From: a virus
Length of the DNA: 46,471 bases
Strand: one strand, 5' to 3'
IMG/VR virus record: IMGVR_UViG_3300031857_000349
Location: 1 to 46,471 of that record
The notes under the pieces were generated by a model. It saw only the letters and a program-made list of their open reading frames with translations. It was not told where the DNA came from and did no database searches. The position numbers and the translations under genes were made by a program. Below are positions 9,567-42,793 of the stretch, one piece after another (positions within the stretch are counted from its first letter, which is position 1; every line of letters starts with the position of its first letter).

Positions 9567-9926
9567 ATGAAGCCACGAAGCGCAAAAGCAAAGGGGCGTA
9601 AATTACAAAATAATGTTCGTGATCTAATACAGGAACACTTTCCGCAACTCCATCCAGATGACGTGGTATCTACGCAAATGGGAGGAGCTGGTGTAGACAT
9701 TCAGTTGTCACCAGCAGCACGGAAAGTGTTCCCGTATTCTATTGAGTGTAAGAACCAAGAAAAATTGAATATATGGGAAGCCCTTAAACAAGCAGAAACG
9801 AATATAAAAGATGGTACACAACCTGTCCTATTTTTCAAACGTAATCATTCCAAGACTTACGTTGCAATCGACGCTGACCATTTTTTTGAACTAATAAACA
9901 AATTACGAAAGGTTGACAATCCATAG
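9567..9926 (+). CDS. PD-(D/E)XK nuclease, Holliday-junction-resolvase-like, 119 aa
   Basis: This is a compact nuclease of the restriction-endonuclease-like fold. The metal-binding core is visible as D44 (GAGVDIQLS) followed by E60-C-K62 (YSIECKNQEKLNIWEALKQA). This spacing is typical of archaeal-type Holliday junction resolvases and related phage recombination nucleases. The basic N-terminus (KPRSAKAKGRKLQ) probably contacts DNA. GAGG at 9557-9560 precedes the ATG. Placement immediately before primase and the SbcCD-like fusion supports a role in recombination, branch processing or DNA repair. The exact substrate (junction, flap or ends) cannot be read from the sequence. Confidence 0.75.
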   Translation: MKPRSAKAKGRKLQNNVRDLIQEHFPQLHPDDVVSTQMGGAGVDIQLSPAARKVFPYSIECKNQEKLNIWEALKQAETNIKDGTQPVLFFKRNHSKTYVAIDADHFFELINKLRKVDNP

Positions 9927-24513: not shown

Positions 24514-27500
24514 ATGAATATTGAATCATTATTATACGAAGCGCTCCAACTCCCGTCAACTAACCGAGCCCATATTAATGCGCTGCGGTACATTTTACAT
24601 AAAGAAGTTTCCGTTGATTTAAAGTTCTTAGCGGCACAGTCCCTAACGGAAATTCATAATCAATATAATTGGTGGATAACAGAACGGGGGTTGGACGAAT
24701 CGTGCATTGTGGGACCAAACGATAGTGCCGCAACCGTCCGTAAAAAATGTAAAAAAGCGTTCAAACATGGGGAGAAGGTGTACCCCATGCACTGGATTTA
24801 TGCTGTCTCTGGCTCCCCTATGGCGTCTGGATTGGGGGAAGAACACAATCCCTACGATTCTCCAGACTATGCCTTAAACGGGTTCACGGGAACGTTTAAA
24901 AAGAAACAAGACCCAGAAGATAAAGAAACGTTAACTCGTCGATTTGCGGATTTAGACCCGATAGAAGAAGAAAAATCCAGTACGGAACGAGTTAGAAGAT
25001 ATTATAAAAGACATCCCGAAAAGGTCCGTAAATATTTGAAAGATACGGTCAAGGATCGTGTTGCTCGTAATCGGGACCGGGCAAAGGCTATCAAAAAACA
25101 TGGTAAAGAAAAGATGAAGAACCATGACGTGCACCATCCGAACGGACCACAAAACGGTGGGGCACGATTGGCTAAAAAAGATCATGGACGGGATAAGGTG
25201 AATGAAGAATACTCACCAGATGTCATTTCTAGTACGATTCAAGAGTTTGTGAATTTTGCCGTACAAAAACTTCAATTACAAACTCTTCCTACCGTTACTA
25301 TTATCCCATCATCTGACCATATGACGAGTTTGGGATATTATGATCCCATGACGAAGCAAATCAATGTAGTCGTAGAAGGAAGATTACTAGCAGATATTTT
25401 ACGGACACTTGCCCACGAATTAGCACATAGAAAACAAGACGAATTGGGATTGATTACCAACCCAATGATTGATGGTGCAACGGGATCTCCCATAGAAAAT
25501 AACGCAAACGCAATTGCAGGAATTCTACTCCGTCAATATGGTCAAAGTAATCCTCGTATATTCATGACCGAAGGATTGTTGATGGAAGGTGGTGCACATG
25601 GACATCTAGCACATCCATTTGAAGACACAGATTTATCGTTTGATGACTTTGATGAAATGATTAGTCGGTCGTTAGTGGGTAATTTAGAAAAGGAAGGACC
25701 GGTCGTAGAAAAAATGGACGGTCAAAATATTGCGTTCACTGTTCGTGATGGAAAGGTTGTATTTGCACGAAACAAAGGACATGTAAAAAATCGTGCAGAA
25801 AAAGCACTATCAGCAGAAGAATTAGCCAAAATGTTTGCAGGTCGTGGGGAAATCTCCGATGCATTTGCTAAAGCAGCAGAAGATATTGAAGTGGCAATGA
25901 GTAAACTGTCACCTGAAGAAATTGAACAAGTATTTGGAGACGGTAGACGAGTGATGAGTACCGAAATTATTTACCCGGGCACTCGTAACGTAATTCCATA
26001 TGACAAGACGGTGTTGGTATTTCATGGTACATTGGAACATGATGATGATGGCGAAAAAGTCGGTGTTCAAAACACTGAAAATGGACAAATTATTGCTAAT
26101 GCCGTAACTAAAGCAAACGCAGATAAACAACGTACGTTTGGTATTTCGGGTCCACGAACAGTTGCTATTTCGGATCAAGTCACTGAAGAAATGCAGCAAG
26201 TATACACTCGATTATCACAAAAATTAGAAGATCTTCGTGCGCAATATAATTTAAAACCATCTGCTACGTTACACGATTATTTGGAAGAATGGTGGAACGA
26301 ACAATTAACCGAAATAGAAAGTCAACAAGGATTTAAGTTCACCAATCAAGAACGTGCTGGACTTATTGCTCGTTGGATTGATAACGATAAAAAGTTTGGA
26401 GTAAAAAATCTATCCGATGAAAAGAAAGAATGGTTTAGAGAATTTGAAAAGAATGATCTAACACCAATGCTAAAACAATCCGTGAAACCTGTTGAGCAAG
26501 TATTTTTAACCGCAGGTGTATATGCATTAAAACGTGTTGTAGAGTTTCTATCGGCAAATAATCCTGCAATGGCAGAAGAATTGAAAAAACAATTTGTAGA
26601 TAGTATACGTGGTATACAACAAGCGGGTGGTCCTGGAAAATTACAGAAATTAGAATATGAACTAGCTAGATTAAAAGAACTTGGTATTGATAACGTGGTA
26701 CCAAGTGAAGGATTAATATTCACATATAATGGTAATCCGTATAAATTAACAGGTGCATTTGCTCCGGTAAATCAAATTATTGGAACAATGAAATATGACA
26801 GAGCTCCTGAAAAACCAGAGGCTTCATCAACAGAGCCGCAAAAGACCGAAGCACCGCCAGAAAAAGCACAAGACGAACCTGTACAGCCAGAAACTCCCGT
26901 ACAACCACCTAAACCAATTGCCATCTATCCAGGACGTTTTCAGCCATATCATGCGGGACATCATGTGACGTATGAAGCATTGGTTGAAAAGTTTGGAAGG
27001 GAAAACGTGTATGTAGTGAGTTCAGACAAGCAAGATAGTATTACGTCACCATTTGGGTTCAGTGACAAACAGGAAATCATGACAAGTATGTTTGATATTC
27101 CAGAAGATCGTATTATTCAAGTAAAAAATCCATACAATCCAATAGAAGTAACAAAAGGATTACCCGAAGGAACTCCTGTAATATTTGCAGTGGGTGAGAA
27201 AGATGCGCAACGATTGGGTGGTAAATACTTCCAAAAATATGATCCAAATGAAAAAATGTTAGGGTACAAACAAGCAGGATATGTGTGGATTGGACCCCCA
27301 CCAAATCTGGAAGTTAATGGAAAAGAAATTAGTGGTACACAACTTCGTGCAGTTATGGGTGATCCAGCTATTACGGATAGAGCAAAACAAGAAATTTTTA
27401 TTAAAATATATGGTAAGTTTGACAAGAACATTTTTGATAAAGTAGTCAAAAAAACGTCGGATGCAGAAGAGGCACGTAAATTAACGGATATGCACGGTAA

Positions 27501-28449
27501 ACCAGAGAAACCTACCACAGAACCAGAAACTACGCCAAAAAAAGGACGTGGAAAAAAACCTGACGAAAAAGCACTTGGTCGTGCTAAATCTGTACTAGGG
27601 CAAAAAGTTCGTAATCCAAAAACGGGTCGGGATATCTTGGTGGCAACTGCATTAAAGTACCCAGAAGATGAACCTGTACGAAAGGCGGCTGAACGTATGG
27701 TACAACAAGCAATGGCGGAAAAAAATGAAATATTATCCGAAGGAAAAGCACCAAAAAAACTTAAGGTATATACACACATCCGTGAATATACCGATGAAGA
27801 TTTGGAATATGAAAAAGACGAATATTTTAATAATGAACGAACATTTGAAGCATTTCCAGATTTAGCAGATTCAGCAGATGAATTAAAAAAATTAATTTCT
27901 AATGCGGCAAGTGAAGTACTAGAAGTGGAAGAACTACAAGCATTAGAAAATAGTGATGTTGGGGAGGTCTTACGTGGTGAAAATAAGATGAAAGTATTAA
28001 AAAATCTTATTAGTAAAGAAAAAGACGTAAAAGGATTACTTAGTGATATTAAAAATAAGAAGCCGATTGCCATGCCAATTATTATTAAGCACACCAACGG
28101 ATACTACTTATTGGGGGGAAACACTCGGTTGTCAGTCCTTGCGGCAATTGGACATACAATGCCTGTGAAAGTTTTGGGTCAAGCAAGTCCATATCCATCC
28201 CCGTATGTAGTTGGAAAGTCGGGAGACGTAAAAAAGACGGGTAAGAAAAAGACAGGAAACAAAGATTTATTTAAAAAGTTAATGCAGATGCGTATCACTA
28301 ATCCTGAGACGGGTAATCAAGTCAAAGTGGATACGGCAATGGATTATGATAGATTACATCCTGCTCATAAAGCAGCAATGGCGTTTATTCGTCAACACAT
28401 GAAAGGAATTTCCAACCGAGCAGGTATACCAAAAAACAGAAATGACTAA
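24514..28449 (+). CDS. Multi-domain 'polyvalent' protein with capsid-targeting-like leader, 1311 aa
   Basis: Domains in order: leader MNIESLLYE (1-9, L-Y-E then A); a basic segment with HDVHHPNG (204-211) and DHGRDK (223-228); a zincin-type peptidase, H301-E-L-A-H305 with candidate third ligand E328 in ENNANAIAG; a ligase-like covalent nucleotidyltransferase with motif I K400-M-D-G, ARNKG (418-422), FHGTLE (503-508), SEGLIF (731-736) and YKLTGAF (743-749), split by a helical insert of about 220 residues; a Pro/Glu linker; an NMNAT-like domain (GRFQPYHAGH 807-816, ISGTQLR 939-945); a NP.TG repeat (1033-1067 and again 1262-1297); and a ParB-like segment (LGGNTRLSVLAAIG 1200-1213). All motifs look intact. 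I infer that it is packaged in the head and injected. Activities are inferred from motifs, and substrates are unknown. Confidence 0.75.
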   Translation: MNIESLLYEALQLPSTNRAHINALRYILHKEVSVDLKFLAAQSLTEIHNQYNWWITERGLDESCIVGPNDSAATVRKKCKKAFKHGEKVYPMHWIYAVSGSPMASGLGEEHNPYDSPDYALNGFTGTFKKKQDPEDKETLTRRFADLDPIEEEKSSTERVRRYYKRHPEKVRKYLKDTVKDRVARNRDRAKAIKKHGKEKMKNHDVHHPNGPQNGGARLAKKDHGRDKVNEEYSPDVISSTIQEFVNFAVQKLQLQTLPTVTIIPSSDHMTSLGYYDPMTKQINVVVEGRLLADILRTLAHELAHRKQDELGLITNPMIDGATGSPIENNANAIAGILLRQYGQSNPRIFMTEGLLMEGGAHGHLAHPFEDTDLSFDDFDEMISRSLVGNLEKEGPVVEKMDGQNIAFTVRDGKVVFARNKGHVKNRAEKALSAEELAKMFAGRGEISDAFAKAAEDIEVAMSKLSPEEIEQVFGDGRRVMSTEIIYPGTRNVIPYDKTVLVFHGTLEHDDDGEKVGVQNTENGQIIANAVTKANADKQRTFGISGPRTVAISDQVTEEMQQVYTRLSQKLEDLRAQYNLKPSATLHDYLEEWWNEQLTEIESQQGFKFTNQERAGLIARWIDNDKKFGVKNLSDEKKEWFREFEKNDLTPMLKQSVKPVEQVFLTAGVYALKRVVEFLSANNPAMAEELKKQFVDSIRGIQQAGGPGKLQKLEYELARLKELGIDNVVPSEGLIFTYNGNPYKLTGAFAPVNQIIGTMKYDRAPEKPEASSTEPQKTEAPPEKAQDEPVQPETPVQPPKPIAIYPGRFQPYHAGHHVTYEALVEKFGRENVYVVSSDKQDSITSPFGFSDKQEIMTSMFDIPEDRIIQVKNPYNPIEVTKGLPEGTPVIFAVGEKDAQRLGGKYFQKYDPNEKMLGYKQAGYVWIGPPPNLEVNGKEISGTQLRAVMGDPAITDRAKQEIFIKIYGKFDKNIFDKVVKKTSDAEEARKLTDMHGKPEKPTTEPETTPKKGRGKKPDEKALGRAKSVLGQKVRNPKTGRDILVATALKYPEDEPVRKAAERMVQQAMAEKNEILSEGKAPKKLKVYTHIREYTDEDLEYEKDEYFNNERTFEAFPDLADSADELKKLISNAASEVLEVEELQALENSDVGEVLRGENKMKVLKNLISKEKDVKGLLSDIKNKKPIAMPIIIKHTNGYYLLGGNTRLSVLAAIGHTMPVKVLGQASPYPSPYVVGKSGDVKKTGKKKTGNKDLFKKLMQMRITNPETGNQVKVDTAMDYDRLHPAHKAAMAFIRQHMKGISNRAGIPKNRND

Positions 28450-29693: not shown

Positions 29694-31271
29694 ATGTCGC
29701 AAGATTTAAAAGAAATTATTAAACAAGAATACAAAAAATGTGCAACCAATCCTGCATATTTTTTGTCTAAGTATTCTTACATTCAACATCCAACCCGTGG
29801 TCGGATGTTGTTTGATTTGTACCATTACCAAAAAGATGCACTGAAAGATTTTGACAATCATGATTATAATATTGTACTCAAGGGTCGGCAGATTGGTATT
29901 TCTACATTGGTTGCTGGATACTCACTGTGGCTCTTGTTATTTCACCGAGACAAAAATATTCTCGTTATTGCCACCAAACAAGAAACTGCAAAGAACTTGG
30001 TAACGAAAGTACGATTCATGCATCAAAATCTTCCTGTGTGGCTACGGGGAAGTGTAACTACTGATAATAAACTCTCCTTACAGTTCGCAAACGGATCACA
30101 AATTAAAGCAGTGGCAAGTAGTAAAGATGCGGGTCGTTCTGAGGCACTGTCTCTCCTTATTCTTGACGAGGCCGCATTCATTGACGATGCAGAAATTATT
30201 TGGACAGCTGCATCCAGTACGTTATCTACGGGTGGTAAAGCCATTCTTTTATCCACCCCAAATGGCATTGGTAATTTTTTTCATAAGATGTGGCAACAAG
30301 CAGAAAATAAATCAAATGGATTTAATCCCATTCTCCTAGATTGGCGGGTCCATCCAGAACGTGATCAAGCATGGCGTGATCGTCAAACAGAATTAATGGG
30401 TGAAATGGAAGCATCTCAAGAACACGATGCATCCTTTATTTTCTCGGGTAACACAGTTATACCGCCGGATATTATTGAGTTTTATAAAAAGACTTATGTG
30501 CAAGAACCCATCTCCAAACAAGGATTTGATGGGAACTTATGGATCTGGGAATATCCGTTGGCTGGAAAATCGTATGTAGTATGTGCTGACGTTGCACGAG
30601 GTGACGGCGAAGATTATTCTACTTTCCATGTTATTGACGTTGAAAAATCTGTACAAGTTGCCGAATACAAAGGAAAGGTGGAAACAAAACAATTCGGTAA
30701 TATGTTGGTATCTATCGCCACAGAATACAATGATGCACTATTAATACCTGATAATAGTTCTATTGGATGGAACTGTATTCAACAAATTATTGATCGGGGA
30801 TACAGAAATCTTTTTTACATGTCACGAGATTTACAATATGTAGACGTAGAACATCAGGTAACGGGTAGATATGCTCGTGATGAACGAAACATGGTACCAG
30901 GCTTCATGATTTCCCAACGCACTCGTCCATTAATCATCGCTCGACTAAAAGAATATATGTTGGATAACTCGTTTACAATTCGGTCTGGACGGATGATTGC
31001 TGAACTAGAAACATTTATTTGGAAAAACGGTCGTCCAGAAGCATTGCAGGGATATAATGACGATTTAGTGTTGGCGTTGTGTATTGGACTATGGGTTCGT
31101 GATACAGCCTTACGATTACGAATGGAAGGAATAGAATTGACAAAAATGGCGTTGGATAAAACATCGTATAACACTGTTCCCTTCGTACAACGTGGTGGAT
31201 TACAAGAAAATCCCTATGAAATGCCCATCGGTGACGACCGGACAGAAAATATCAGTTGGTTGATTGGATAA
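29694..31271 (+). CDS. 17: Terminase large subunit (gp17-like packaging ATPase-nuclease), 525 aa
   Basis: This motor pumps DNA into the prohead and cuts the concatemer. I start it at ATG 29694, directly after the previous stop and behind AGGGAG, rather than at 29649 inside the upstream gene. The ATPase domain has the T4-type Walker A VLKGRQIGIST (61-71), Walker B LLILDE (154-159) and coupling motif LLSTPNG (185-191). The RNase-H-like nuclease shows D299 (CADVARGDGEDYS), D353 (LIPDNSSIGW) and a late YNDDLVLAL acidic pair. Length is close to the family's usual size. Sheath and tube genes, which follow gp17 in T4, are not next. A 5.4-kb block of small genes is. Confidence 0.92.
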   Translation: MSQDLKEIIKQEYKKCATNPAYFLSKYSYIQHPTRGRMLFDLYHYQKDALKDFDNHDYNIVLKGRQIGISTLVAGYSLWLLLFHRDKNILVIATKQETAKNLVTKVRFMHQNLPVWLRGSVTTDNKLSLQFANGSQIKAVASSKDAGRSEALSLLILDEAAFIDDAEIIWTAASSTLSTGGKAILLSTPNGIGNFFHKMWQQAENKSNGFNPILLDWRVHPERDQAWRDRQTELMGEMEASQEHDASFIFSGNTVIPPDIIEFYKKTYVQEPISKQGFDGNLWIWEYPLAGKSYVVCADVARGDGEDYSTFHVIDVEKSVQVAEYKGKVETKQFGNMLVSIATEYNDALLIPDNSSIGWNCIQQIIDRGYRNLFYMSRDLQYVDVEHQVTGRYARDERNMVPGFMISQRTRPLIIARLKEYMLDNSFTIRSGRMIAELETFIWKNGRPEALQGYNDDLVLALCIGLWVRDTALRLRMEGIELTKMALDKTSYNTVPFVQRGGLQENPYEMPIGDDRTENISWLIG

Positions 31272-31340: not shown

Positions 31341-31631
31341 ATGAAACGTAGTGAATTAGAAGAAATTATTATGGAAGAAATTTATAAGACACTGCACGAA
31401 GAACGTCTTATGAACGAACATGTACTTGACGAAAAATCCGTTCCAGAACCATATGATAGAAAAAATCGTCGTAGAATGAATAGATCACAAATTCTTCGTA
31501 GAGACAAGATAGGAAAAGCTATGAAGAAAAATAAAAAAATTGTTGCAAAATTTAAAAAGCAATATGGTAGTGAATGGATAGATTATTTATGGGCAACCGC
31601 AACGCATAACGCCATTAAGGGCGGAGAATAA
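31341..31631 (+). CDS. Small basic protein with capsid-targeting-like leader, 96 aa
   Basis: ATG 31341 is chosen because GGAG lies six bases upstream. An earlier in-frame ATG at 31308 overlaps the promoter-like element. The N-terminus MKRSELEEIIMEEIYKTL has an I-M-E site that resembles a gp21 cleavage point. The remainder is very basic (RKNRRRMNRSQILRRDKIGK) and ends IDYLWATATHNAIKGGE. A protein of this charge could bind packaged DNA. It is first in the row of small genes between terminase and portal. Function is not known. Head-internal location is inferred. Confidence 0.6.
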   Translation: MKRSELEEIIMEEIYKTLHEERLMNEHVLDEKSVPEPYDRKNRRRMNRSQILRRDKIGKAMKKNKKIVAKFKKQYGSEWIDYLWATATHNAIKGGE

Positions 31632-31633
31632 AT

Positions 31634-32503
31634 ATGATTAGAATGATGGGATTAGTGGACTTACGTCCTATAAAAACATTACGAAGTACCGTAGATATTG
31701 AAGAAGCGTTGGATCCGGTTGGAAAAGAAGATAGTGATGTTGATAATGATGGAGATACGGATAAGTCAGACGAATATTTAAAGAATCGTCGTGATGCAAT
31801 TTCCAAGAACGTTGACGAAGATTCTGCCCGTAACCAACTAATGGCAACGATAGTGAAGTGGAAGGGCGAAGATGGAAAAGATCATGAAGCAACATTAAAA
31901 TCCATCTACGGTAGCCCACAAACGTATCCAAAGGGATCTCCAGCTCGTCGTGCAGCAGACCAAATTTACGCACGTGCCAAGAATCCACAACAAGCACGTC
32001 CAGCACGAACATTTGCACCACCAAGAAAGTCCAGTAAATATAATTTTAGACCTGGTACAGATGACGAGTTTGAATATGAAAGAGACAAACGTGGTTTGTG
32101 GGGTGCTGATCTTGACGAAACGATTACTGAAGACGATAATCCACAGCCATCTAATGACCATGAAGTGTCGATGGCAAACAATTCATTAGATATTATTATT
32201 CAAAGTGCTAATGAATTAAAAACTAAATTAGGACAAGAAGAAAAAGATATTCCTGCGTGGATTCAAGATCATATCACAAATGCCGCTAATTTCATTCAAC
32301 AAGCAGCAAATAATTATCACGAGTACAATACGCCTGACCAACCACAACCTGATCAACTGGAACAAGAACCAATGAACGAAAAGGCTCCAGAAGGTTGGGA
32401 AGGTACTGTCAAGGCAATGAAAAAACATAAAGAAATTGACAACCCTTGGGCACTTGCATATTACATGAAGTCCAAGGGATATAAATCCCACAAGAGCGAA
32501 TAA
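31634..32503 (+). CDS. Modular internal-type protein with EF-hand/dockerin-like loop, 289 aa
   Basis: GGAG at 31622-31625 supports ATG 31634. Residues about 24-55 hold EALDPVGKEDSDVDNDGDTD followed by KSDEYLKNRR. The D-x-D-x-D-G-D-x-D run is a calcium-loop pattern known from small proteins of T4-like marine phages. A helical 'SPARRAADQIYARAK' unit follows, weakly like the repeat in the 1311-aa protein. Next come an acidic linker, a four-helix-like segment (WIQDHITNAANFIQQAANNY), and a C-terminal APEGWEGTVKAMKKHKEIDN / PWALAYYMKSKGYKSH module. Leader-like cleavage could occur at VDIEE-A. It is clearly a shuffled assembly of short modules. The biochemical role is unknown. Confidence 0.65.
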   Translation: MIRMMGLVDLRPIKTLRSTVDIEEALDPVGKEDSDVDNDGDTDKSDEYLKNRRDAISKNVDEDSARNQLMATIVKWKGEDGKDHEATLKSIYGSPQTYPKGSPARRAADQIYARAKNPQQARPARTFAPPRKSSKYNFRPGTDDEFEYERDKRGLWGADLDETITEDDNPQPSNDHEVSMANNSLDIIIQSANELKTKLGQEEKDIPAWIQDHITNAANFIQQAANNYHEYNTPDQPQPDQLEQEPMNEKAPEGWEGTVKAMKKHKEIDNPWALAYYMKSKGYKSHKSE

Positions 32504-32504
32504 T

Positions 32505-32867
32505 ATGGAACAGATTGCAAAGTTTCTTGGCACTTTGATGTCAAGTCGGACTCAGGCACACATCTTTCATCTTCAAACTCCATCATTTGCTGCACATAAA
32601 GCGTTAGATGATTATTATAGTCAAATTACTGACTTGATTGATTCGTATGCAGAAATGGCACAAGGTCGGTACGGGATTATTCGTGGATACGTCATGCAAG
32701 GTCAAATTTTTGAAGACGACACGGCAATTAAATATTTTGGCGGTTTGCAGAAGTTTGTGGACGGTATTCGCGGTTCTCTTCCACAAGACGGTGAATTGAA
32801 TAATACCGTAGATGAAATTTCAGGATTGATATCCAGTACATTATATAAACTTAAATTCCTCAAGTAA
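32505..32867 (+). CDS. Helical ferritin-like-looking protein, 120 aa
   Basis: The sequence is almost entirely helical, with the run SSRTQAHIFHLQTPSFAAHK, then ALDDYYSQITDLIDSYAEMA and a C-terminal LISSTLYKLKFLK. The spacing of H and E/D residues over four helices recalls small ferritin-like (Dps-type) proteins, and similar proteins exist in T4-like phages as a family of unknown function. I cannot confirm a metal site. It has no hydrophobic L/I-x-E leader, unlike most of its neighbours. It starts two bases after the previous stop and ends two bases before the next gene. Confidence 0.6.
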   Translation: MEQIAKFLGTLMSSRTQAHIFHLQTPSFAAHKALDDYYSQITDLIDSYAEMAQGRYGIIRGYVMQGQIFEDDTAIKYFGGLQKFVDGIRGSLPQDGELNNTVDEISGLISSTLYKLKFLK

Positions 32868-32868
32868 A

Positions 32869-33201
32869 ATGAAATACAAAGAATTTTACGAAGATATCTG
32901 TCGGTGTGATGAAGGATGTGGATGCGAAGAAACTACCAATGAATACACGGGTGATACGTTTAGTGCCCCCCAACCAGATTTTGATACGTATTCAACACAC
33001 AATCCCGACCCACATAAAAAGAAAATTGAAGAGTTGGTAGCATTATTAGAAAAGAATGTTCCAACAAGTCCTGATAAATGGGCAAAAGCAAAAGCCGCAG
33101 CTCGTGCTAAATTCAAAGTGTACCCTTCCGCTTACGCCAATCTCTGGGCAGCTAAGAAATATAAAAGTATGGGTGGTGGATGGAAGAAAGGAAAGAAGTG
33201 A
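32869..33201 (+). CDS. Small Cys-rich N-terminus, basic 'VYPSAYAN' module protein, 110 aa
   Basis: The N-terminus MKYKEFYED resembles a capsid-targeting leader (F-Y-E then D). It is followed by a five-cysteine cluster (CRCDEGCGCEE) that could bind metal. The C-terminal 45 residues carry KWAKAKAAARAKFKVYPSAY followed by ANLWAAKKYKSMGGGWKK. This basic helical module recurs in many phage small proteins and in polyvalent proteins, with no established activity. The gene is packed against both neighbours: two bases upstream, and an overlap of four bases with the next GTG start. Confidence 0.65.
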   Translation: MKYKEFYEDICRCDEGCGCEETTNEYTGDTFSAPQPDFDTYSTHNPDPHKKKIEELVALLEKNVPTSPDKWAKAKAAARAKFKVYPSAYANLWAAKKYKSMGGGWKKGKK

Positions 33202-33353
33202 TTAAATTAGTTGATATTATTTTGGAAAAGTGGACAAAGAAATATAAAAAGTCCATTAATTGCAGCAGTCCCAAAGGGTTTTCCCAACGAGCTCATTGCG
33301 CTGGTCGTAAAAAACGGAAGCGTGGGGGCACAACAAAATCCAAATCTGTATGA
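33198..33353 (+). CDS. 51-aa basic Cys-His mini-protein with targeting-like leader (GTG start)
   Basis: This gene starts at GTG 33198, overlapping the upstream stop as GTGA, and ends in TGA overlapping the next ATG as ATGA. These are the coupling signals used by its neighbours. The product opens MIKLVDIILE-K, a leader-like I-L-E site. It continues with INCSSPKGFSQRAHCAGRKK, a C-x11-H-C motif, and a basic tail. 'C..PKGFSQ.AHC.GRKK' recurs in small proteins of T4-like marine phages. A metal-binding, DNA-binding head-internal peptide is plausible. The function is not known. Confidence 0.65.
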   Translation: MIKLVDIILEKWTKKYKKSINCSSPKGFSQRAHCAGRKKRKRGGTTKSKSV

Positions 33354-33673
33354 TTAGTCTCACTGAATTGTTGGAAGACGTAGTAGAAGAACTTGACGAA
33401 AAATATAAAACCAAGGGTAACTTGGGCAAATGGCTTCGTCAAAAATGGGTGGATATTTCTCGTAAAGATAAAAGTGGGAAGCATCCACCGTGTGGCGCAT
33501 CTGCGGGTAAAAAGGAACGGAAGGGTGGTTCTGCGAAATATCCGAAATGTCGTCCAGCTCGTTCAGCGGCAGCAATGAGCAAGGGTGAAAAACGATCAGC
33601 AGTTGTTCGTAAACGTAAAGCGGGAAATCCTGGCGGGAAACCTACGATGGTCGCAACATATAAAAAGAGTTAA
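33350..33673 (+). CDS. Small basic protein with targeting-like leader and Cys motif, 107 aa
   Basis: The N-terminus MISLTELLEDVVEELDEK matches the leaders of its neighbours (L-L-E). The body contains NLGKWLRQKWVDISRKDKSG, then HPPCGASAGKK...YPKCRPARSA with paired cysteines, and ends with the strongly basic KRSAVVRKRKAGNPGGKPTM. The WVDI...CG...YPKC...KRKAGNPGGKP order is common in phage accessory proteins, with no assigned activity. Its net positive charge suits packaging with DNA. The start overlaps the previous stop by four bases and the next ATG follows after four bases. Confidence 0.65.
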   Translation: MISLTELLEDVVEELDEKYKTKGNLGKWLRQKWVDISRKDKSGKHPPCGASAGKKERKGGSAKYPKCRPARSAAAMSKGEKRSAVVRKRKAGNPGGKPTMVATYKKS

Positions 33674-33677
33674 TACT

Positions 33678-34100
33678 ATGGATAATATTAATGAAGCTTG
33701 TTGGGAAGGATATAAGCAGGTGGGAATGAAAGAAAAGGGTGGTAAGATGGTTCCCAATTGTGTCCCCTTAGACGAAAGTTGTATATATGACGGTGAATTT
33801 TGTCCTGCATGTCTTGCCAAGTATATCTTAGAAAACAAAAAAGCAGGATACTTAGAAGAAGCCGAATACCAAGGACGCAAGGTTCCTTTAGGTAAACCAA
33901 TGCGCGGCGATGTAAAAAAATTCAAAGTATTTGTCAAAGACCCCTCGACAGGCAATGTCAAAAAGGTTAATTTTGGCGATAAGACTATGAGAATTAAAAA
34001 GTCTAATCCTGCTCGTCGCAAGTCATTCAGAGCACGTCACAATTGTTCTAATCCTGGTCCACGAACAAAAGCAAGATTTTGGTCGTGCAAAAAATGGTAA
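33678..34100 (+). CDS. Two-module basic Cys protein, copy A1 of the tandem duplication, 140 aa
   Basis: I choose ATG 33678, five bases after the upstream stop, over an ATG at 33585 lying inside the previous gene. The N-terminus MDNINEACWEGYKQVGMKEK then GGKMVPNCVP is a recurrent phage module, and N-I-N-E-A resembles the gp23 leader FINEAG. A CPAC pair follows. The last 55 residues (KDPSTGNVKKVNFGD, MRIKKSNPARRKSFRARHNC, then SNPGPRTKARFWSCKKW) form a basic two-Cys module. That module is duplicated as an independent gene at 35226-35402. Function unknown. DNA or metal binding is possible. Confidence 0.65.
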   Translation: MDNINEACWEGYKQVGMKEKGGKMVPNCVPLDESCIYDGEFCPACLAKYILENKKAGYLEEAEYQGRKVPLGKPMRGDVKKFKVFVKDPSTGNVKKVNFGDKTMRIKKSNPARRKSFRARHNCSNPGPRTKARFWSCKKW

Positions 34101-34106
34101 ACTACT

Positions 34107-34817
34107 ATGAATGATCTAACACTAACACAACTTATACAAGAAATTCTTGACGAAGAATCAGAAACGGCCAAAAAAGCAAAAGCTATGGGATTGACCTACA
34201 TGAAATTTGGTCGTTGGGGCAAGGACGGTAAAGTTACCCACACAACACAAAACGGAGTTCTGACTCCTGCAAAAACAAACGCCGTAGGTACTAATCCTAC
34301 CGCAGGTACGACGACACCTACGCCAATGAATAAAGTTCAGACCCCAGCAACTTCTCAACAACCAACTATAAAATCTCCGGGGTCGTTTAAAAAAGATGCC
34401 GGACAATCAATGTATAACGCAACATATCGTAGTATTTCTGCGGCAGGACTAGGTAATAAAGATGCCTTTGACAAGGGATATGTCCCATTGACTGTTAAAT
34501 CAGCAAGTCCTAAAAGTTGGTCTAGAGGTGATGGAGCACGACATAAAGATTGGATAACCGTGGAGCCCAACAGTGAGTGGCAACAATTTGACTCGGCAAA
34601 GGAAAAAGATCCCCAAGTAGTACAAAAGTCTCTACAACAATATATTGATTCTACGGGTGCCAAGAAAATCGGTCAAATTAAAGGTCAGTTTGGTTCTTCC
34701 GCACACAATGATGTATATAAGTTGGGATCAACGTTGTTTGTTAATCGTGGAGATAGAGTAGAAGTGGGAAGCACGGGTAGATTAAAAAATAAGGATGTGT
34801 GGGGGTTTAAAAAATAA
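34107..34817 (+). CDS. 'GRW' module protein, copy B1 of the tandem duplication, 236 aa
   Basis: The leader-like N-terminus MNDLTLTQLIQEILDEE has L-I-Q-E and I-L-D-E sites. It is followed by AKAMGLTYMKFGRWGKDGKV, a module shared with the 35396 product (AKKRNLHHIGWGRYADASGK). A Thr/Pro-rich linker (residues about 60-95) leads to a unique C-terminal domain of about 130 residues. That domain includes YRSISAAGLGNKDAFDKGY and WSRGDGARHKDWITVEPNSE, and ends GSTLFVNRGDRVEVG. The Arg/His/Glu content could suit an enzyme, but I cannot assign one. Divergence of B1 from B2 outside the N-terminal module indicates domain replacement after duplication. Confidence 0.6.
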   Translation: MNDLTLTQLIQEILDEESETAKKAKAMGLTYMKFGRWGKDGKVTHTTQNGVLTPAKTNAVGTNPTAGTTTPTPMNKVQTPATSQQPTIKSPGSFKKDAGQSMYNATYRSISAAGLGNKDAFDKGYVPLTVKSASPKSWSRGDGARHKDWITVEPNSEWQQFDSAKEKDPQVVQKSLQQYIDSTGAKKIGQIKGQFGSSAHNDVYKLGSTLFVNRGDRVEVGSTGRLKNKDVWGFKK

Positions 34818-34818
34818 T

Positions 34819-35229
34819 ATGATACGTCTCCGTGATTTATTGACCGAAGCAGAGACTAAAAAAGACACTCCCTACATGAGTGGGGATACTTATATTAGTA
34901 AGGAAGAAGCAAAGCGTATCTATGATTATATGGAATATGACTTTGACTTCAACCAATTTGTTTTGGGCATGAACACGGAATTAGAACACCAAGATGTAAC
35001 GGACGGGAGTTTAGTAAAAACAGCAATGATAGCTGCTGCTCATTTACGGGAAGTTCCAGACTATTACACGAAATTAAAACAACACGTAGAAAAACAAAAA
35101 GTTTCCGAAGATGGTGCTCCAACGGGAGGAATCGGATTAAGTCTTCCCGGCGGTTATATTAATGGAGCACCAAAACCCAAAGATGTCAAAAAGATGCGGA
35201 AGCATCTCAATAAGGAGAAAGATCAATGA
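34819..35229 (+). CDS. Leader-bearing acidic protein, copy C1 of the tandem duplication, 136 aa
   Basis: The start is ATG 34819, one base after the previous stop. The N-terminus MIRLRDLLTEAETKKDTPY is the clearest capsid-targeting-like leader in the window (L-T-E then A). Residues 1-92 are about 89% identical to the entire product of 36144-36422 (ten differences). C1 carries an extra 44-residue C-terminus (GAPTGGIGLSLPGGYINGAP, then a basic KDVKKMRKHLNKEK) absent from C2. The shared part is acidic and helical (ELEHQDVTDGSLVKTAMIAA). Function unknown. Co-packaging in the head is inferred. Confidence 0.65.
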   Translation: MIRLRDLLTEAETKKDTPYMSGDTYISKEEAKRIYDYMEYDFDFNQFVLGMNTELEHQDVTDGSLVKTAMIAAAHLREVPDYYTKLKQHVEKQKVSEDGAPTGGIGLSLPGGYINGAPKPKDVKKMRKHLNKEKDQ

Positions 35230-35402
35230 TTCGTCTAAAAGATCCATCGTCGGGAAATGTCAAGAAAGTCAATTTTGGTGATCCGAATATGAGAATTAAA
35301 AAGTCTAATCCAGCTCGTCGGAAGTCATTTAGAGCACGTCATAATTGTGCAAACCCTGGTCCACGCACAAAAGCTCGTTATTGGAGTTGCAGAAAATGGT
35401 AA
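35226..35402 (+). CDS. 58-aa basic Cys mini-protein, copy A2 (truncated duplicate of A1)
   Basis: This short gene starts at ATG 35226 inside the stop of C1 (ATGA) and ends by overlapping the next ATG (35396). After MIRL it encodes KDPSSGNVKKVNFGDPNMRI and PARRKSFRARHNCANPGPRT, ending KARYWSCRKW. It is nearly identical to the last 55 residues of the 33678 product. The N-terminal CWEGYKQVG module of A1 is missing, and the new start MIRL resembles neighbouring leaders. The retained reading frame and coupling signals argue it is expressed rather than decaying. Confidence 0.65.
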   Translation: MIRLKDPSSGNVKKVNFGDPNMRIKKSNPARRKSFRARHNCANPGPRTKARYWSCRKW

Positions 35403-36142
35403 ATTTAACATCGTTATTACTATCGGAAGACGTGGGTGAAGAAGCCAAAAAACGTAATCTTCACCATATAGGTTGGGGACGTTACGCTGATGCTTCTGGT
35501 AAACTTGTAGCCAAAAGTGTGGATGGTAAACTAGTGGATGTCCCAAAGGATGAACTTGACCCTGAAGTAGACCAACCAACTAGAGACATTGAAGGTTTAC
35601 CTAACGAAAAACGTCCGGGTGCATGGAAAAACTGGAAACCAAAATTATCTACTACTGACGATGAATTACGTCAGTACAATTACGCAAGTAGAGCAATTAG
35701 AGCAATTGGCCCCGTGATGGGTTCTGAACGAGAGATAAAACATAGAAAACTTCCTCCTGGCGAAGTGACATATGAAAAAGGAGCGGGTAATCCATACGTG
35801 GCCAGAAATCCAGATGGAAAATTAGCATCATTTTCACACGACACATTTGCAGCCGCATTTGCAAACGGGAAATCATTGAAAGGATATGATTTTGTAAAAG
35901 ATTATGATGGTTCTATGAAAAAATTATCAAAGGAACTAAAACCTACGCTTGATAAACTAAAGTCAGCTGAAACTGGTACCAATGATAAAGGTAAGATAAA
36001 ATCTTTTTTAAGAGATTTAGTTACCGCATTTGTTTTAGGTACGCGCCGGGGCCGTAAAGGTTCCCGAGCGTCAAGTTCTGGAGGTAGCGGATTCGGCGGC
36101 GGAGGCGGGTTCAGTGGCGGCGGCGGGGGTTCATCGTTCTAA
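35396..36142 (+). CDS. 'GRW' module protein with Gly-rich tail, copy B2 of the tandem duplication, 248 aa
   Basis: ATG 35396 is preferred over 35345 because it sits at the end of the previous gene like the other coupled starts, and gives the leader MVNLTSLLLSED (L-S-E then D). The GWGRYADASGKLVAK module follows, shared with B1. The middle is unlike B1: SRAIRAIGPVMGSEREIKHR, KGAGNPYVARNPDGKLASFS and a Lys-rich helix. Residues about 198-215 are hydrophobic (SFLRDLVTAFVLGTRRGRKG). The last 25 are almost only Gly, Ser and Phe (GSGFGGGGGFSGGGGGSSF). No enzyme is recognised. The tail resembles low-complexity ends of some membrane-associated proteins. Confidence 0.6.
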   Translation: MVNLTSLLLSEDVGEEAKKRNLHHIGWGRYADASGKLVAKSVDGKLVDVPKDELDPEVDQPTRDIEGLPNEKRPGAWKNWKPKLSTTDDELRQYNYASRAIRAIGPVMGSEREIKHRKLPPGEVTYEKGAGNPYVARNPDGKLASFSHDTFAAAFANGKSLKGYDFVKDYDGSMKKLSKELKPTLDKLKSAETGTNDKGKIKSFLRDLVTAFVLGTRRGRKGSRASSSGGSGFGGGGGFSGGGGGSSF

Positions 36143-36143
36143 C

Positions 36144-36422
36144 ATGATTTTACTTCGTGATTTATTGACCGAGGCCGATACCAAAAAAGACACTCCGTAT
36201 GTGAGTGGGGATACTTATATTAGTACGGATGAAGCAAAACGTATCTATGATTATATGGGATATGATTTTGACTTCAACCAATTTGTTTTGGGTATGAATG
36301 TAGAACTGGAACACCAAGATGTGACGGACGGGAGTTTAATCAAAACTGCGATGATTTCCGCCGCACATCTCCGAGAGGTTCCTGATTATTATACAAAGTT
36401 GAAACAATATGTGGAGAAATAA
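36144..36422 (+). CDS. Leader-bearing acidic protein, copy C2 of the tandem duplication, 92 aa
   Basis: ATG 36144 follows the previous stop by one base. An earlier in-frame ATG at 36114 lies in the Gly-rich end of B2 and is rejected. The N-terminus MILLRDLLTEADTKKDTPY is a capsid-targeting-like leader. The whole protein aligns with residues 1-92 of the 34819 product with ten substitutions, most of them conservative, and high nucleotide similarity. The copies differ at many third positions, so selection has kept both. It lacks the C-terminal extension of C1. Confidence 0.65.
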   Translation: MILLRDLLTEADTKKDTPYVSGDTYISTDEAKRIYDYMGYDFDFNQFVLGMNVELEHQDVTDGSLIKTAMISAAHLREVPDYYTKLKQYVEK

Positions 36423-36423
36423 A

Positions 36424-36759
36424 ATGATTCGTCTTACCGATTTATTGATGGAAAACGCAGAACGTCGGGTCAACTTGATGAAAATTCAAGCCATCATGGA
36501 AAAATTGTACCCAGAACTAACAGATACCCAATCAAAAAAACTTATGGAATTGTGCACAGAAGTTCATATGATGGCTTCCCAAATGAATACCATCCCCTAT
36601 ATTAGAACAGAGAGTAGTTTAGTTGAATGGACCATTTTAGCTGCAGCATTTAAGGCAAAAGTCACTGAATTAAAAGAAGAAGTAGTCAAAGTATGTGAAG
36701 ATAAAAAAATTGATTCGGCGACTGTAGTAAAAGCACTTGACGAAGTATTAACATATTAA
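36424..36759 (+). CDS. Helical protein with capsid-targeting-like leader, 111 aa
   Basis: ATG 36424 follows the previous stop by one base. MIRLTDLLMENAERRVNLMK carries an L-M-E site like the neighbouring leaders. The rest is predicted helical (IQAIMEKLYPELTDTQSKKL, then MELCTEVHMMASQMN) and ends VVKALDEVLTY. It does not share the C1/C2 body, so only the leader is common. It is the last small gene before the portal. Function unknown. Confidence 0.6.
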   Translation: MIRLTDLLMENAERRVNLMKIQAIMEKLYPELTDTQSKKLMELCTEVHMMASQMNTIPYIRTESSLVEWTILAAAFKAKVTELKEEVVKVCEDKKIDSATVVKALDEVLTY

Positions 36760-36769
36760 GTGAGGTTTT

Positions 36770-38644
36770 ATGGCAGACACTAGTGTTTTCGGAAGACTTA
36801 AAAAACTTTTTTCTACTAACACCATTGTAAGAAACGTTGGAGGAAAAAAATTAAGAATTGCCGATACTGATCAAATCCAATCATTTGTCAATCGTCGTGG
36901 TGTAGACCGATATCATCGTGTATACCAGTCAGGCACTGGCGGGTATGGGTCACACCACGGTCGTTATGAAGCAGCTGCGGCGTTTCAAGGGGCTAGACTT
37001 CAACTGTTCCGTGATTATGACATGATGGATAATGATCCTATTGTCGCCTCTATCTTAGATATTTACGCAGACGAAAGTACGGTAAAGGACGAATTTAGTC
37101 GTATTTTGACAATTAAAACCGACGACACACAAATTCAAGAAATTCTTCATAACCTATTTTACGATATTCTGAACGTCGAGTTCAATCTTTGGCCGTGGAT
37201 TCGTAACATGGCAAAGTATGGGGATTTCTTCTTGTACTTGGACATTGATCCAGAATACGGAATTGTGAACGCCATTCCACTCTCCGTGTATGAAACGATT
37301 CGTGTAGAAGGTGAAGAACCTGGTAATCCTTTTTCCGTTAGATTTACTATTCAAAATGATTTCTTAGCTCTCGGAAAAACAGAATTTGATAATTATGAAA
37401 TTGCCCATTTCCGTTTATTAGCCGATACTAACTTCCTTCCATATGGCAAAGCAATGATTGAAGGCGGTCGTCGTGTATGGAAACAACTTCAACTCATGGA
37501 AGATGCAATGTTAATTCATCGTATCATGAGAGCACCAGACAAACGGAAGTTCAAGATTGATATCGGAAATATTCCACCCGCTGAAGTGGAAACTTACATG
37601 CAACGGATTATTGACCGAATGAAGAAGATTCCGTTAGTGGATCCAAAGACGGGCGATTACAATCTCCGTTATAACATGATGAATATTACGGAAGATTTCT
37701 ACCTCCCGGTACGTGGTAAGGACAGTGGGACAGAAATTGAAACCATGCAAGGTCTGCAATTTAATGCTATTGAAGATATTGAATATCTCCGTAAGAAACT
37801 CCTTGCTGCATTCAAAGTACCGAAGTCATTTATTGGATACGAAGAAGATATTAACGGTAAAGCAACGTTAGCGGCACAAGATGTTCGTTTTGCTCGTACG
37901 ATTGAACGTATCCAACGGATTATGATTTCGGAACTCACGAAGATTGCTATTATCCATCTATATGTTCAAGGGTTCACGGACGAAAAACTCATCAATTTTG
38001 AATTATCGTTGACCAATCCATCCACGCTGTACGAACAAGAAAAGATTAATATCTGGAAAGAAAAGTTTGCTCTTGCCAAGGATATGACCGGTGGTCAAGC
38101 AGTTCTTCTCTCACAAGACTGGGTATATAATAATATCCTGGAAATGTCCGATGAAGAAATTGTGAAGGAACGTGAAAAGATCATGGAAGACATGAAACGT
38201 CAACAGGAACAACAGGCGGCAATGCAACCTCCAATGCCGGGGCAACCTGGAATGGACGGAGGAATGCCACCGGAAGGAGCTGAACTTCCTCCCGAAGAAA
38301 CTCCGTCTGAAGAACAACCGCCAGAAGGAGACGGAGAACAACAAATTGATGACGTAGATCAAATCCTTTCTAGTCTAGAAGATATGGAAGATGATGAATC
38401 TGAATTGGAAGAAATGTTGATGAAAAACAAAGGAGGTCGTCCCCGTGAAGGATTAAAGTTTGGAACCGACAAACATCCGTTGGGACGTGATCCATTGGGA
38501 CATAAAGAAAATAAAAAAGCCATGAAAAGAACACTTTCTGCTGAAACTAAGACATTTTTGGACGTACTACAGAAAAAAGGAGTGAGTAAATACAGACAAA
38601 TGATCTCCGAAAATATTCTAAGTGATGAAAAATTAGAAGGTTAA
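36770..38644 (+). CDS. 20: Portal vertex protein (gp20-like), 624 aa
   Basis: This protein forms the dodecameric ring through which DNA enters and leaves the head, and on which the prohead is initiated. GAGG five bases before the ATG marks the start. T4 gp20-like features include FQGARLQLFRDYDMMDNDPI, VASILDIYADESTVKDEF, the MAKYGDFFLYLDIDPEYG strand and RRVWKQLQLMEDAMLIHRIM. The C-terminal 130 residues are an unusual Gln/Pro/Glu-rich acidic extension (MQPPMPGQPGMDGGMPPEGA) ending in a basic tail (GRPREGLKFGTDKHPLG). T4 gp20 is about 520 residues, so this extension explains the greater length. The acidic tail may contact core or internal proteins. Confidence 0.9.
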   Translation: MADTSVFGRLKKLFSTNTIVRNVGGKKLRIADTDQIQSFVNRRGVDRYHRVYQSGTGGYGSHHGRYEAAAAFQGARLQLFRDYDMMDNDPIVASILDIYADESTVKDEFSRILTIKTDDTQIQEILHNLFYDILNVEFNLWPWIRNMAKYGDFFLYLDIDPEYGIVNAIPLSVYETIRVEGEEPGNPFSVRFTIQNDFLALGKTEFDNYEIAHFRLLADTNFLPYGKAMIEGGRRVWKQLQLMEDAMLIHRIMRAPDKRKFKIDIGNIPPAEVETYMQRIIDRMKKIPLVDPKTGDYNLRYNMMNITEDFYLPVRGKDSGTEIETMQGLQFNAIEDIEYLRKKLLAAFKVPKSFIGYEEDINGKATLAAQDVRFARTIERIQRIMISELTKIAIIHLYVQGFTDEKLINFELSLTNPSTLYEQEKINIWKEKFALAKDMTGGQAVLLSQDWVYNNILEMSDEEIVKEREKIMEDMKRQQEQQAAMQPPMPGQPGMDGGMPPEGAELPPEETPSEEQPPEGDGEQQIDDVDQILSSLEDMEDDESELEEMLMKNKGGRPREGLKFGTDKHPLGRDPLGHKENKKAMKRTLSAETKTFLDVLQKKGVSKYRQMISENILSDEKLEG

Positions 38645-40053: not shown

Positions 40054-40638
40054 ATGGGACTTCTCTGTGAATATACCGAATTACATTATGACCGTAACAT
40101 TCTAACGGAAGCGTTAGATGGAAGTAAACCTTTCATCCTAAAAAACGTCGTATTACAACGGGCTAATGCAAAAAATCAAAATGGTCGTGTGTATCCAAAA
40201 GAAGTATTGATGCGTGAGGCAGCAGTTTACAAGAAAAACTTCGTAGATAGTCGTCGTGCATTAGGTGAACTGGACCATCCTGAAAGTCCCGTCGTCAACC
40301 TCAAGAATGTGTGCTGTAACGTGGTGGGGTTGTGGACGGACGGTGATGATGTTAAAGGCGACATTGAAATTTTGACCACACCAACCGGTAATATTGTACG
40401 GGAACTCATCAAGAACAATATTCGTCTCGGAGTATCATCCAGAGGTATGGGATCGGTGCGCCAAATGGGAGAAAATACGGTAGAAGTTCAAGAAGATTTC
40501 TCACTAATTTGCTTTGATATTGTAAGTAATCCCTCAACAATTGGGGCATTCATTAACGAAAATGTACAGTCTAAGATTGTTACACCATATGATGCAATTG
40601 ATAAATTGGTTCACGATTTCTTAAGCGAAGTTAAATAA
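40054..40638 (+). CDS. 21: Prohead core protease (gp21-like), 194 aa
   Basis: This serine protease matures the prohead by cutting scaffold, capsid and internal proteins after L/I-x-E. I place the start at ATG 40054, behind GAGG. The 40036 ATG lies in the previous gene. Catalytic signatures of the herpes-type/gp21 fold are visible: H75 in GELDHPESPV and S128-S129 in LGVSSRGMGS. AKNQNGRVYPKEVL is the conserved strand before them. The N-terminal N-I-L-T-E19-A20 is a good self-processing site, as in T4 where gp21 matures itself. Its own cleavage rule matches the leaders found on the small genes upstream. Confidence 0.88.
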   Translation: MGLLCEYTELHYDRNILTEALDGSKPFILKNVVLQRANAKNQNGRVYPKEVLMREAAVYKKNFVDSRRALGELDHPESPVVNLKNVCCNVVGLWTDGDDVKGDIEILTTPTGNIVRELIKNNIRLGVSSRGMGSVRQMGENTVEVQEDFSLICFDIVSNPSTIGAFINENVQSKIVTPYDAIDKLVHDFLSEVK

Positions 40639-41326: not shown

Positions 41327-41542
41327 ATGTACGTAAAGGTCAATGAAGGAAAGGATGAATTAGGAAAGGCATTAAAACAGTTTACTAAAATGGTAAAAAA
41401 GTCAGAGTTAATACAAGAACTCAGAAATCGTGAACATTTCTTAAAACCCTCTAAGAAGCGTATTTTTAAACGCCAAGAAGCATTACGCCGCAGAAAACGT
41501 GAAGAAAGACGAGCGGCACGACAAAAACATTACGATAATTGA
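41327..41542 (+). CDS. rpsU: Phage-encoded ribosomal protein bS21, 71 aa
   Basis: The sequence follows bS21 along its length: MYVKVNEGKDELGKALKQFT matches the 'V.EN.....ALR.FKR' start. KSELIQELRNREHFLKPSKK matches the 'G.L.E.R.RE.YEKPS..RK' core, and the rest is the basic C-terminal helix (ALRRRKREERRAARQKH). bS21 binds near the anti-Shine-Dalgarno region of 16S rRNA and affects initiation. Phage copies of bS21 are known from metagenomes and from pelagiphages. A strong AAGGGGG ribosome binding site (41316-41322) lies four bases before the ATG. The gene sits between assembly genes, ahead of the gp22 promoter-like site, so late expression is likely. Confidence 0.88.
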   Translation: MYVKVNEGKDELGKALKQFTKMVKKSELIQELRNREHFLKPSKKRIFKRQEALRRRKREERRAARQKHYDN

Positions 41543-41668: not shown

Positions 41669-42793
41669 ATGGCACAAATTACCAACAAGCTTTTAAAAGA
41701 AGCCATTGCCGACGCAGAAGCAGTTCGTGAAACTGCTGTTGCGAACGCAAAGCTCGTTTTAGAAGAAGCAATTACACCACAAATTCGTGATATGATTGCC
41801 CGTCGTCTTCGTGTTGAAGCAATGGAAGGCGAGGAAGAAAAGGAAGAAGTGAAAGAAGAATCAGTAAAAGAACTTCCACACCAAGACGCTGAGGCAGAAG
41901 GAGGTGCAGACTTCCCAGCCGATTCATCAACAGTTGGCGCTTCCGATAACAAGGAACCATCTGATGATGCATTTGACACATCGGCAATTGGCGACGGTGG
42001 TGAAAATAAAGAAGATAGTCACACGGATTGGTACGATGATTGGTCCGAAAGTGATTTTGACCTTGACGAAGTAATCAAGGAATTAGAAGAAGATATTGCA
42101 CGTCTTTCAGAAGCAGAACACGAAGACGAAGCAGAAGAGAAGGAAGAAGCTCCAGAAGCTGAAAAGGCTCCAGAAGCAGAGGAAGAAATGAAGAAGGAAG
42201 GATGGAAGAAAAATGAAGTTTCACACGAAACTCAAGATGCAGATCCATCAAAGTTTGCCAAAGCACCAGTCGTTGAAGACGATATGGAAGCTGGTGAAGA
42301 AGGTGAAGAAGAACTTGATCTTGAAGCAATTCTTGCAGAACTTGAAGCCGACGAAGACGAAATGGGCGCAAAGCCAGATGCTCATGACGCCAAAAAAGCA
42401 ATGGCTGCTAAACTTGCGGGACTCAAGAACGAATTGGCACAATATCGGGAAGCAGTCAATATTCTCCGAGGCCGTTTACAAGAAGTTAACTTATTAAATG
42501 CTAAGTTACTCTTCACAAACAAGATGTTCCGTAAGGACTCTTTGACCAACGAACAAAAGATTCGCATTGTGGAATCATTTGATCGTGCAACAACGGTTCG
42601 TGAAGTGAAGTTAGTATACACAGCATTAGTTGAAAATCTTGCAACAGCAGCAAAGACGTTCAACACATCACGCAAGAAAGTTGTTACCGAAGGATTAGCC
42701 TCTAAGGCAACTCCAACAACGGCACCAAAGAAAGAAGTTATCGTTGAAAATACGGTAGCTCGTCGTTTACAAGAACTCGCAGGAATTATCTAA
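41669..42793 (+). CDS. 22: Prohead scaffold/core protein (gp22-like), 374 aa
   Basis: Scaffold proteins fill the prohead core and are degraded by gp21. This one is extremely acidic (Glu-rich, with Ala/Pro, residues 45-240). It ends in the helical module typical of gp22: LLNAKLLFTNKMFRKDSLTN, then EQKIRIVESFDRATTVREVK. AGGAGT precedes the ATG by eight bases. The N-terminus MAQITNKLLKEA and the internal I-E-x/L-x-E sites fit gp21 cleavage. It is longer than T4 gp22 because of the acidic middle. The acidic core would complement the very basic small proteins encoded upstream if these are recruited to it (inference). Confidence 0.85.
   Translation: MAQITNKLLKEAIADAEAVRETAVANAKLVLEEAITPQIRDMIARRLRVEAMEGEEEKEEVKEESVKELPHQDAEAEGGADFPADSSTVGASDNKEPSDDAFDTSAIGDGGENKEDSHTDWYDDWSESDFDLDEVIKELEEDIARLSEAEHEDEAEEKEEAPEAEKAPEAEEEMKKEGWKKNEVSHETQDADPSKFAKAPVVEDDMEAGEEGEEELDLEAILAELEADEDEMGAKPDAHDAKKAMAAKLAGLKNELAQYREAVNILRGRLQEVNLLNAKLLFTNKMFRKDSLTNEQKIRIVESFDRATTVREVKLVYTALVENLATAAKTFNTSRKKVVTEGLASKATPTTAPKKEVIVENTVARRLQELAGII

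Follow-up and report, generated by a model that had tools for sequence, protein, structure and literature searches.

A gene cassette with capsid-targeting-like leaders, and a modular protein upstream of it, as candidate head-packaged internal proteins of a T4-superfamily phage

The window analysed here is a virus contig of 46,471 bases (IMG/VR record IMGVR_UViG_3300031857_000349) from a T4-superfamily phage, in which the large terminase (TerL), the portal gp20, the S77 prohead protease gp21 and the capsid protein gp23 stand in T4-like order; its host is probably a member of the Bacteroidetes, and among isolates it stands closest to Flavobacterium phage immuto and Microcystis phage Mel-JY01. 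The interval between TerL and portal is filled by 13 genes (A-M), nine with evident short leaders and two more (B and G) with cryptic ones; these leader genes very probably encode internal proteins packaged in the head and processed as in T4, as does the gene of a 1311-residue protein further upstream. The nine leaders quoted in the original prediction were all found in place and in frame, the upstream protein does begin with MNIESLLYE, and each sequence-level prediction of an internal-protein system that was open to test was borne out. The cassette and its borders are as follows (a slash marks the predicted cut).

29694..31271, + strand: large terminase TerL (PF03237), left border of the cassette.
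31341..31631, + strand: gene A, leader MKRSELEEIIMEEI..., with L-D-E/KSVPEPY at the body boundary.
31634..32503, + strand: gene B, MIRMMGLV...DIEE/ALDPVGKED, a cryptic leader, with a DxDxDG module.
32505..32867, + strand: gene C, DUF5856 of a Dps-like family (PF19174, 2.5e-22; phrog_858), no leader, an internal negative.
32869..33201, + strand: gene D, leader MKYKEFYE/D.
33198..33353, + strand: gene E, leader MIKLVDIILE/KWTKKYK, short basic body; its GTG start overlaps the stop of gene D.
33350..33673, + strand: gene F, leader MISLTELLE..ELDE/KY, DUF5872-like basic body.
33678..34100, + strand: gene G, short cryptic leader MDNINE/ACW, CWxGYKQVGMK module and DUF5754-like end.
34107..34817, + strand: gene H, leader MNDLTLTQLIQE/, AKxxGLxxxxFGRW module.
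34819..35229, + strand: gene I, leader MIRLRDLLTE/A, DUF5661 (PF18905, 1.2e-13).
35226..35402, + strand: gene J, MIRLKD- fused to the DUF5754-like body of gene G, no cut site.
35396..36142, + strand: gene K, leader MVNLTSLLLSE/D, AKxxxLxxxGWGRY module, Gly-rich end.
36144..36422, + strand: gene L, leader MILLRDLLTE/A, DUF5661, paralogue of gene I (89% identity in alignment).
36424..36759, + strand: gene M, leader MIRLTDLLME/N, the conserved pre-portal gene, weakly similar to the T4_CASP scaffold family (E=0.011).
36770..38644, + strand: portal gp20 (PF07230, 1e-70), right border of the cassette.

The leaders follow the register of the T4 capsid-targeting sequence, with hydrophobic residues in positions 4, 7 and 8 and E in position 10; the register is exact in genes E, I, L and M, and offset by one or two residues in the 1311-residue protein and in genes F, K, H, D and A; P1, P3, P4 and P7 of the leaders counted are fixed by the detection pattern itself. 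It is the register of T4 ipII/ipIII (MKTYQEFIAE/A) and T4 gp24 (MAKINELLRE/S), and also of the window's own gp23 (MSDVQEFINE/A); in the T4 leader, positions 4 and 7 serve targeting, and positions 8 and 10 processing (PMC9026906). Homologues of gene D start with MEYKEYYTYIFE/D or MNYKDFFSDLYE/A, those of gene E with MIKLVDILLTE/KW or MIKLMDLIPE/TW, and most of those of gene A carry [LIV]xE ahead of KSVPxPY or RTVARxPP. Across three long relatives, the T4-register pattern is found in 8 of 22 cassette genes vs 10 of 431 others (P=2.5e-7); the background of the pattern at internal protein segments is 0.48%. Three of the ten outside matches are the N-terminus of gp23, and the others are plausibly further cargo candidates, such as a free metallopeptidase and a 189-residue gene with the module of genes H and K. 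The leucines of the leaders use five of the six codon types in position 4 and all six in position 8, which points to selection at the protein level and rules out a DNA-level repeat as the source of their likeness. In the AlphaFold2 model of gene I, of moderate confidence (mean predicted local distance difference test score, pLDDT, 65.9), the leader is a separate low-confidence helix. Short amphipathic N-termini are common, and the leaders could in principle be of such a general kind, binding a membrane or a partner or acting as a translation start element, with no tie to the head; this is scarcely credible in view of the fixed boundary Glu, the match to the starts of gp23, gp24 and the internal proteins, the synonymous codon variation, the absence of the leader in phages lacking S77, and the detection of leader proteins in virions of the cyanophage S-CREM2.

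The virion proteome of S-CREM2 (Table 3 of PMC10665884) contains the products of five leader genes: ORF6, a SAM hydrolase (MKDFDSFLEE); ORF13 (MKDLHSFLTE); ORF14, a kinase (VKRFDAFLTE); ORF136 (MQTFSMFFSE); and ORF154, an NMNAT (MKNFSSFLTE/A). With a strict leader pattern, drawn up after the N-termini had been read, five of six matches are virion-detected vs 47 of 213 other genes (P=0.003). For a pattern that had been set in advance, five of the nine matches among non-structural genes are detected (P=0.004). The window is tied to this set by gene H, residues 13-74 of which align to residues 8-66 of ORF14 with 41% identity (E=2e-8), from the end of the leader onward. The NMNAT of S-SZBM1 (MRFRQFIIE/A) has likewise been found in virions, and virions of S-SCSM1 also hold an NMNAT. 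As far as their accessible text goes, the S-CREM2 and S-SCSM1 papers leave open whether the virion enzymes are packaged or contaminants, and make no mention of a leader; in the open-access literature, to which the search was confined, capsid-targeting leaders were not found described in cyanophages beyond the T4 review. For the window phage itself, docking, cutting, packaging, injection and the roles of the proteins are inferred. S-CREM2 further encodes a virion-detected Cas9-like nuclease (ORF12, L110:7704-10313) with FASFMAE/A about 25 residues in, possibly a displaced leader.

The predicted processing enzyme and its other predicted substrates lie downstream of the portal.

40054..40638, + strand: prohead protease gp21 of family S77 (PF03420, 1.8e-25), with a site of its own near the N-terminus, NILTE/A.
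41669..42793, + strand: gp22-like scaffold with many L/I-x-E sites, assigned from its place between gp21 and gp23; a Pfam search gave no match.
42815..44389, + strand: major capsid protein gp23 (PF07068, 9.6e-74, and sites), start MSDVQEFINE/A, main site QLLQE/N at residue 60.

The cleavage motif of T4 gp21 is L/I-x-E (PMC9026906). In the window it is found at the leaders, in gp23 (INE/A at 10, LQE/N at 60), in gp22 and in gp21; the gp21-type processing implied by the original prediction is supported by an S77 protease in the same head cluster and by the presence of the motif both in the leaders and where cuts are expected in gp23. A search of six relatives found S77 (PF03420) in each of them, and it is present in six reference records containing leader bodies as well. 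Conversely, the body of gene F is encoded in four phages in which S77 gave no match, and there all four proteins start at the body and the leader is absent. Related bodies in S77-bearing phages carry T4-like leaders: the metallopeptidase of B23 starts with MNYKQFLRE/S, the ligase of LR756500 with MKFLKSYEEFLNE/N.

Among relatives, 52 loci with TerL and portal borders were collected, 34 after dereplication. Their interval lies in the same place, spans 2.6-5.9 kb and changes in content, and identical leaders shift between unrelated bodies; the expectation that related genomes would carry these leaders ahead of other bodies in this interval held. The CWxGYKQVGMK body stands behind MDNINE/A in one clade and behind MIRLTDILCE/D in another, and inside fused open reading frames (ORFs) it is preceded by GLNE/A, RLEE/A, CIEE/K or TLDE/K; the KWTKKYKKSINC body is preceded by MIKLVDIILE, MIKLVDILLTE or MIKLMDLIPE, or by SSLDE within a longer ORF. 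Gene J is likely a leader/body chimera, the product of recombination. Homing endonucleases were considered as the cause of the variability; GIY-YIG genes do occur in three loci (L006, L017, L018), but they are leaderless and count as negatives. The variable bodies of the relatives gave no Pfam function, with sub-threshold matches only. Immuto encodes a 5'-nucleotidase (NT5C; L081:1236-1835) whose leader, MKKVMGNLADLLLE/E, adds another enzyme to the predicted head cargo.

The small leader proteins might instead be core parts in the manner of T4 gp67 and gp68, shaping the head and then degraded or retained, not injected. Gene M, next to the portal, is nearly universal and shows the weak scaffold similarity listed above, the same sites occur in the scaffold, gp23 and gp21, and T4 core proteins are likewise cut by gp21. 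Against this stand the changing size of the interval even among close relatives, unlike what is seen for essential core parts; the identity of leader proteins elsewhere as enzymes (NMNAT, SAM hydrolase, kinase); and the single site at the boundary in most bodies, not many throughout. This explanation is unlikely. Packaging with delivery is the preferred reading, with the small bodies as host-takeover or anti-defence effectors by inference, though some may be core or assembly proteins.

Further points weigh against packaging as a general account of the cassette. Neither gene C nor gene J has a cut site. Of 21 aligned DUF5661 sequences, 14 carry a leader but seven have a clean leaderless start, so packaging is not needed for DUF5661 everywhere, and gene F lacks its leader in the L015-L022 clade. 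The virion detections come from cyanophages, not from the window phage or a close relative, and in S-SZBM1 the products of genes 191 and 192, which have leaders, were undetected in a shallower virion proteome.

The bodies behind the leaders had been described as unrelated and mostly basic. Most do differ, but the DUF5661 genes I and L are paralogues, the DUF5754-like body is common to G and J, and an AKxxGLxxxGFGRW module recurs in H and K. Of the 11 small bodies that carry leaders, seven are basic and four acidic. The module of gene B is found together with that of gene G in single PHROG families. The family of gene C is without a leader in all homologues read and occurs in nearly every TerL-portal interval. 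In Pfam, none of the window bodies matched the T4 internal proteins or Alt, the AlphaFold2 model of gene I gave no meaningful match in the PDB from which a function of DUF5661 could be read, 50,697 phage records yielded no relative of gene I, and PADLOC returned only weak partial matches. The literature found on DUF5661, DUF5856, DUF5872 and DUF5754 is limited to a study of a giant algal virus and one of polinton-like viruses; DUF5872 and DUF5754 (33350-34100 in the window) also occur in the giant algal Chrysochromulina parva virus (PMC12085832).

The same sites recur inside the 1311-residue protein, for which the original prediction had noted just the leader, and which from its sequence looks like a polyprotein.

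24514..28449, + strand: 1311-residue modular protein; CTP_transf_like above the Pfam cut-off, DUF6782 weak.

Its modules run from the leader (MNIESLLYE/A) through a metallopeptidase with the motif HELAH, the joint GLLME/GG (E358), an RNA-ligase-like and an NMNAT-like part and the joint EILSE/G (E1076) to a ParB-like part. The NMNAT identity is firm (profile match to NMN adenylyltransferases, 3.7e-6); the metallopeptidase is recognized by HELAH and the weak DUF6782 match, and the ParB-like part was read from the sequence alone. The ligase-like identity is supported by an invariant KxDGQN, by PF09414 in one of 16 sequences at 0.008 and by T4 Rnl1 at structural rank 2-3 (E>0.05), no single line being significant alone; phmmer found no sequence match for this domain in the PDB. 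The NMNAT part has no cut site before it, so ligase and NMNAT would remain joined. The first could serve RNA repair at the start of infection, the second NAD supply (PMC9503650). A NARP2-type NAD salvage pairing of NadV with NMNAT was not supported: the NadV partner (PF04095) was absent from six relatives, which may be fragments, and from three reference phages.

The ligase joint reads [LI]-x-E/GGA in all 15 homologues that cover it, and the module upstream of it differs between clades, swapped exactly at the joint. A hydrophobic-x-E site at the ParB joint is kept in all eight ParB-bearing homologues. In Mel-JY01, NMNAT precedes the ligase, with IIAE/GG in between. In a different clade the metallopeptidase is encoded by itself, with a leader of its own, MRLKALLNE/N. 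In the AlphaFold2 model (mean pLDDT 64), E358 and E1076 fall in stretches with pLDDT<50 between better-predicted parts, and they are thus predicted to lie in disordered linkers.

The leaders may be real and the 1311-residue protein yet stay whole, its inner L/I-x-E sites being linkers only: the N4 virion RNA polymerase is packaged uncut (PMC5512222), L/I-x-E is a short motif, common by chance, with 16 occurrences in this protein, and in the jumbo phage LR756508, which has the order ParB-like, NMNAT, ligase, the ligase joint is lost. This is a possibility of some weight, though a doubtful one, as at the ligase joint Glu in P1 and Leu/Ile in P3 never change while P2 varies (V, M, S, L or N), [LI][LI]xE followed by A or G occurs at just three sites, the start and the two module joints, and the module swap falls exactly at a joint. 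Cutting by the protein's own metallopeptidase, an enzyme of the kind proposed as the cutter of polyvalent proteins (PMC5512222), is quite improbable, since the joint is kept in homologues without a metallopeptidase in the ORF and the sites agree with the motif of S77 and with the small leaders. On balance it is more likely than not that a cargo polyprotein is processed inside the head, where the prohead protease cuts it at the joints, and that it is delivered together with a dozen small leader proteins.

Late in infection, the N-terminal leader (hydrophobic in 4, 7 and 8, Glu at about 10) would dock the precursor on the prohead core in the manner of the T4 capsid-targeting sequence; the S77 protease would then cleave after L/I-x-E, freeing the body within the head before DNA is packaged, and the freed bodies would exit with the DNA at the next infection. 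The 1311-residue protein would probably be cut at E9, E358 and E1076 into metallopeptidase, ligase-NMNAT and ParB-like protein, so that a single targeting leader could carry in several enzymes. New bodies would be recruited through recombination that moves leaders and L/I-x-E joints.

The underlying principle is that of the T4 internal proteins and is already known. IPI, IPII, IPIII and Alt share with the window the leader of 10-19 residues with hydrophobic positions 4, 7 and 8, the L/I-x-E cut motif, an S77 protease and the diverse basic bodies; they differ in that the window has a cluster of about 11 leader genes in the TerL-portal interval as well as a probable multi-site polyprotein, whereas T4 has genes 18 and 19 directly before gene 20. 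Polyvalent proteins (Iyer et al. 2017, PMC5512222) are large multi-domain late proteins with metallopeptidase and ParB-like parts and predicted early delivery, which the 1311-residue protein may resemble; their proposed cutter is the metallopeptidase, where the window has a T4-type leader and joints predicted to be cut by the prohead protease. The cyanophages S-CREM2, S-SZBM1 and S-SCSM1 have NMNAT, kinase and SAM hydrolase in virions, and the S-CREM2 kinase has the gene H module; their enzymes are separate genes, unlike the 1311-residue protein. In phiKZ and SPN3US, many packaged inner-body proteins likewise lose N-terminal propeptides to an S77-like protease, but these propeptides are mostly long, the motif is different and the heads are those of giant phages. 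What is new is that the set is so large and modular, that leaders and joints are exchanged, and that a multi-enzyme polyprotein is likely cut inside the head, which departs from the metallopeptidase-driven cutting proposed for polyvalent proteins.

Some other features of the region were recorded. A ribosomal protein S21 gene without a leader (41327-41542) lies inside the head cluster, recalling the freshwater Bacteroidetes phages of PMC9723584, in which, unlike in the window, it is on the opposite strand; that paper poses the question whether phage bS21 is packaged, and the lack of a leader here predicts that it is not, at least by the leader route. The tail genes include a PDDEXK endonuclease-like gene (9567-9926) and a NUMOD3/DUF559 endonuclease-like ORF (7256-8146), as well as a tail protein of 2861 residues (14024-22609) with many GNVGIGTTSP-like repeats and, by eye, a C-terminal peptidase S74-like autochaperone sequence. 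In two other genomes, a second gp23-like fragment lies within a frame of 886-887 residues near gp23 (G002 79013-79288, G001 141047-141343).

These observations offer a rule, readable in the sequence, for telling which proteins are taken along in the heads of T4-type phages. The rule bears on whether NMNATs, kinases and similar enzymes in cyanophage virions are cargo or contaminants, as the virion-detected examples that were read have the leader. It also yields a definite list of unstudied proteins predicted to be delivered, and it suggests that the prohead protease splits multi-domain cargo.

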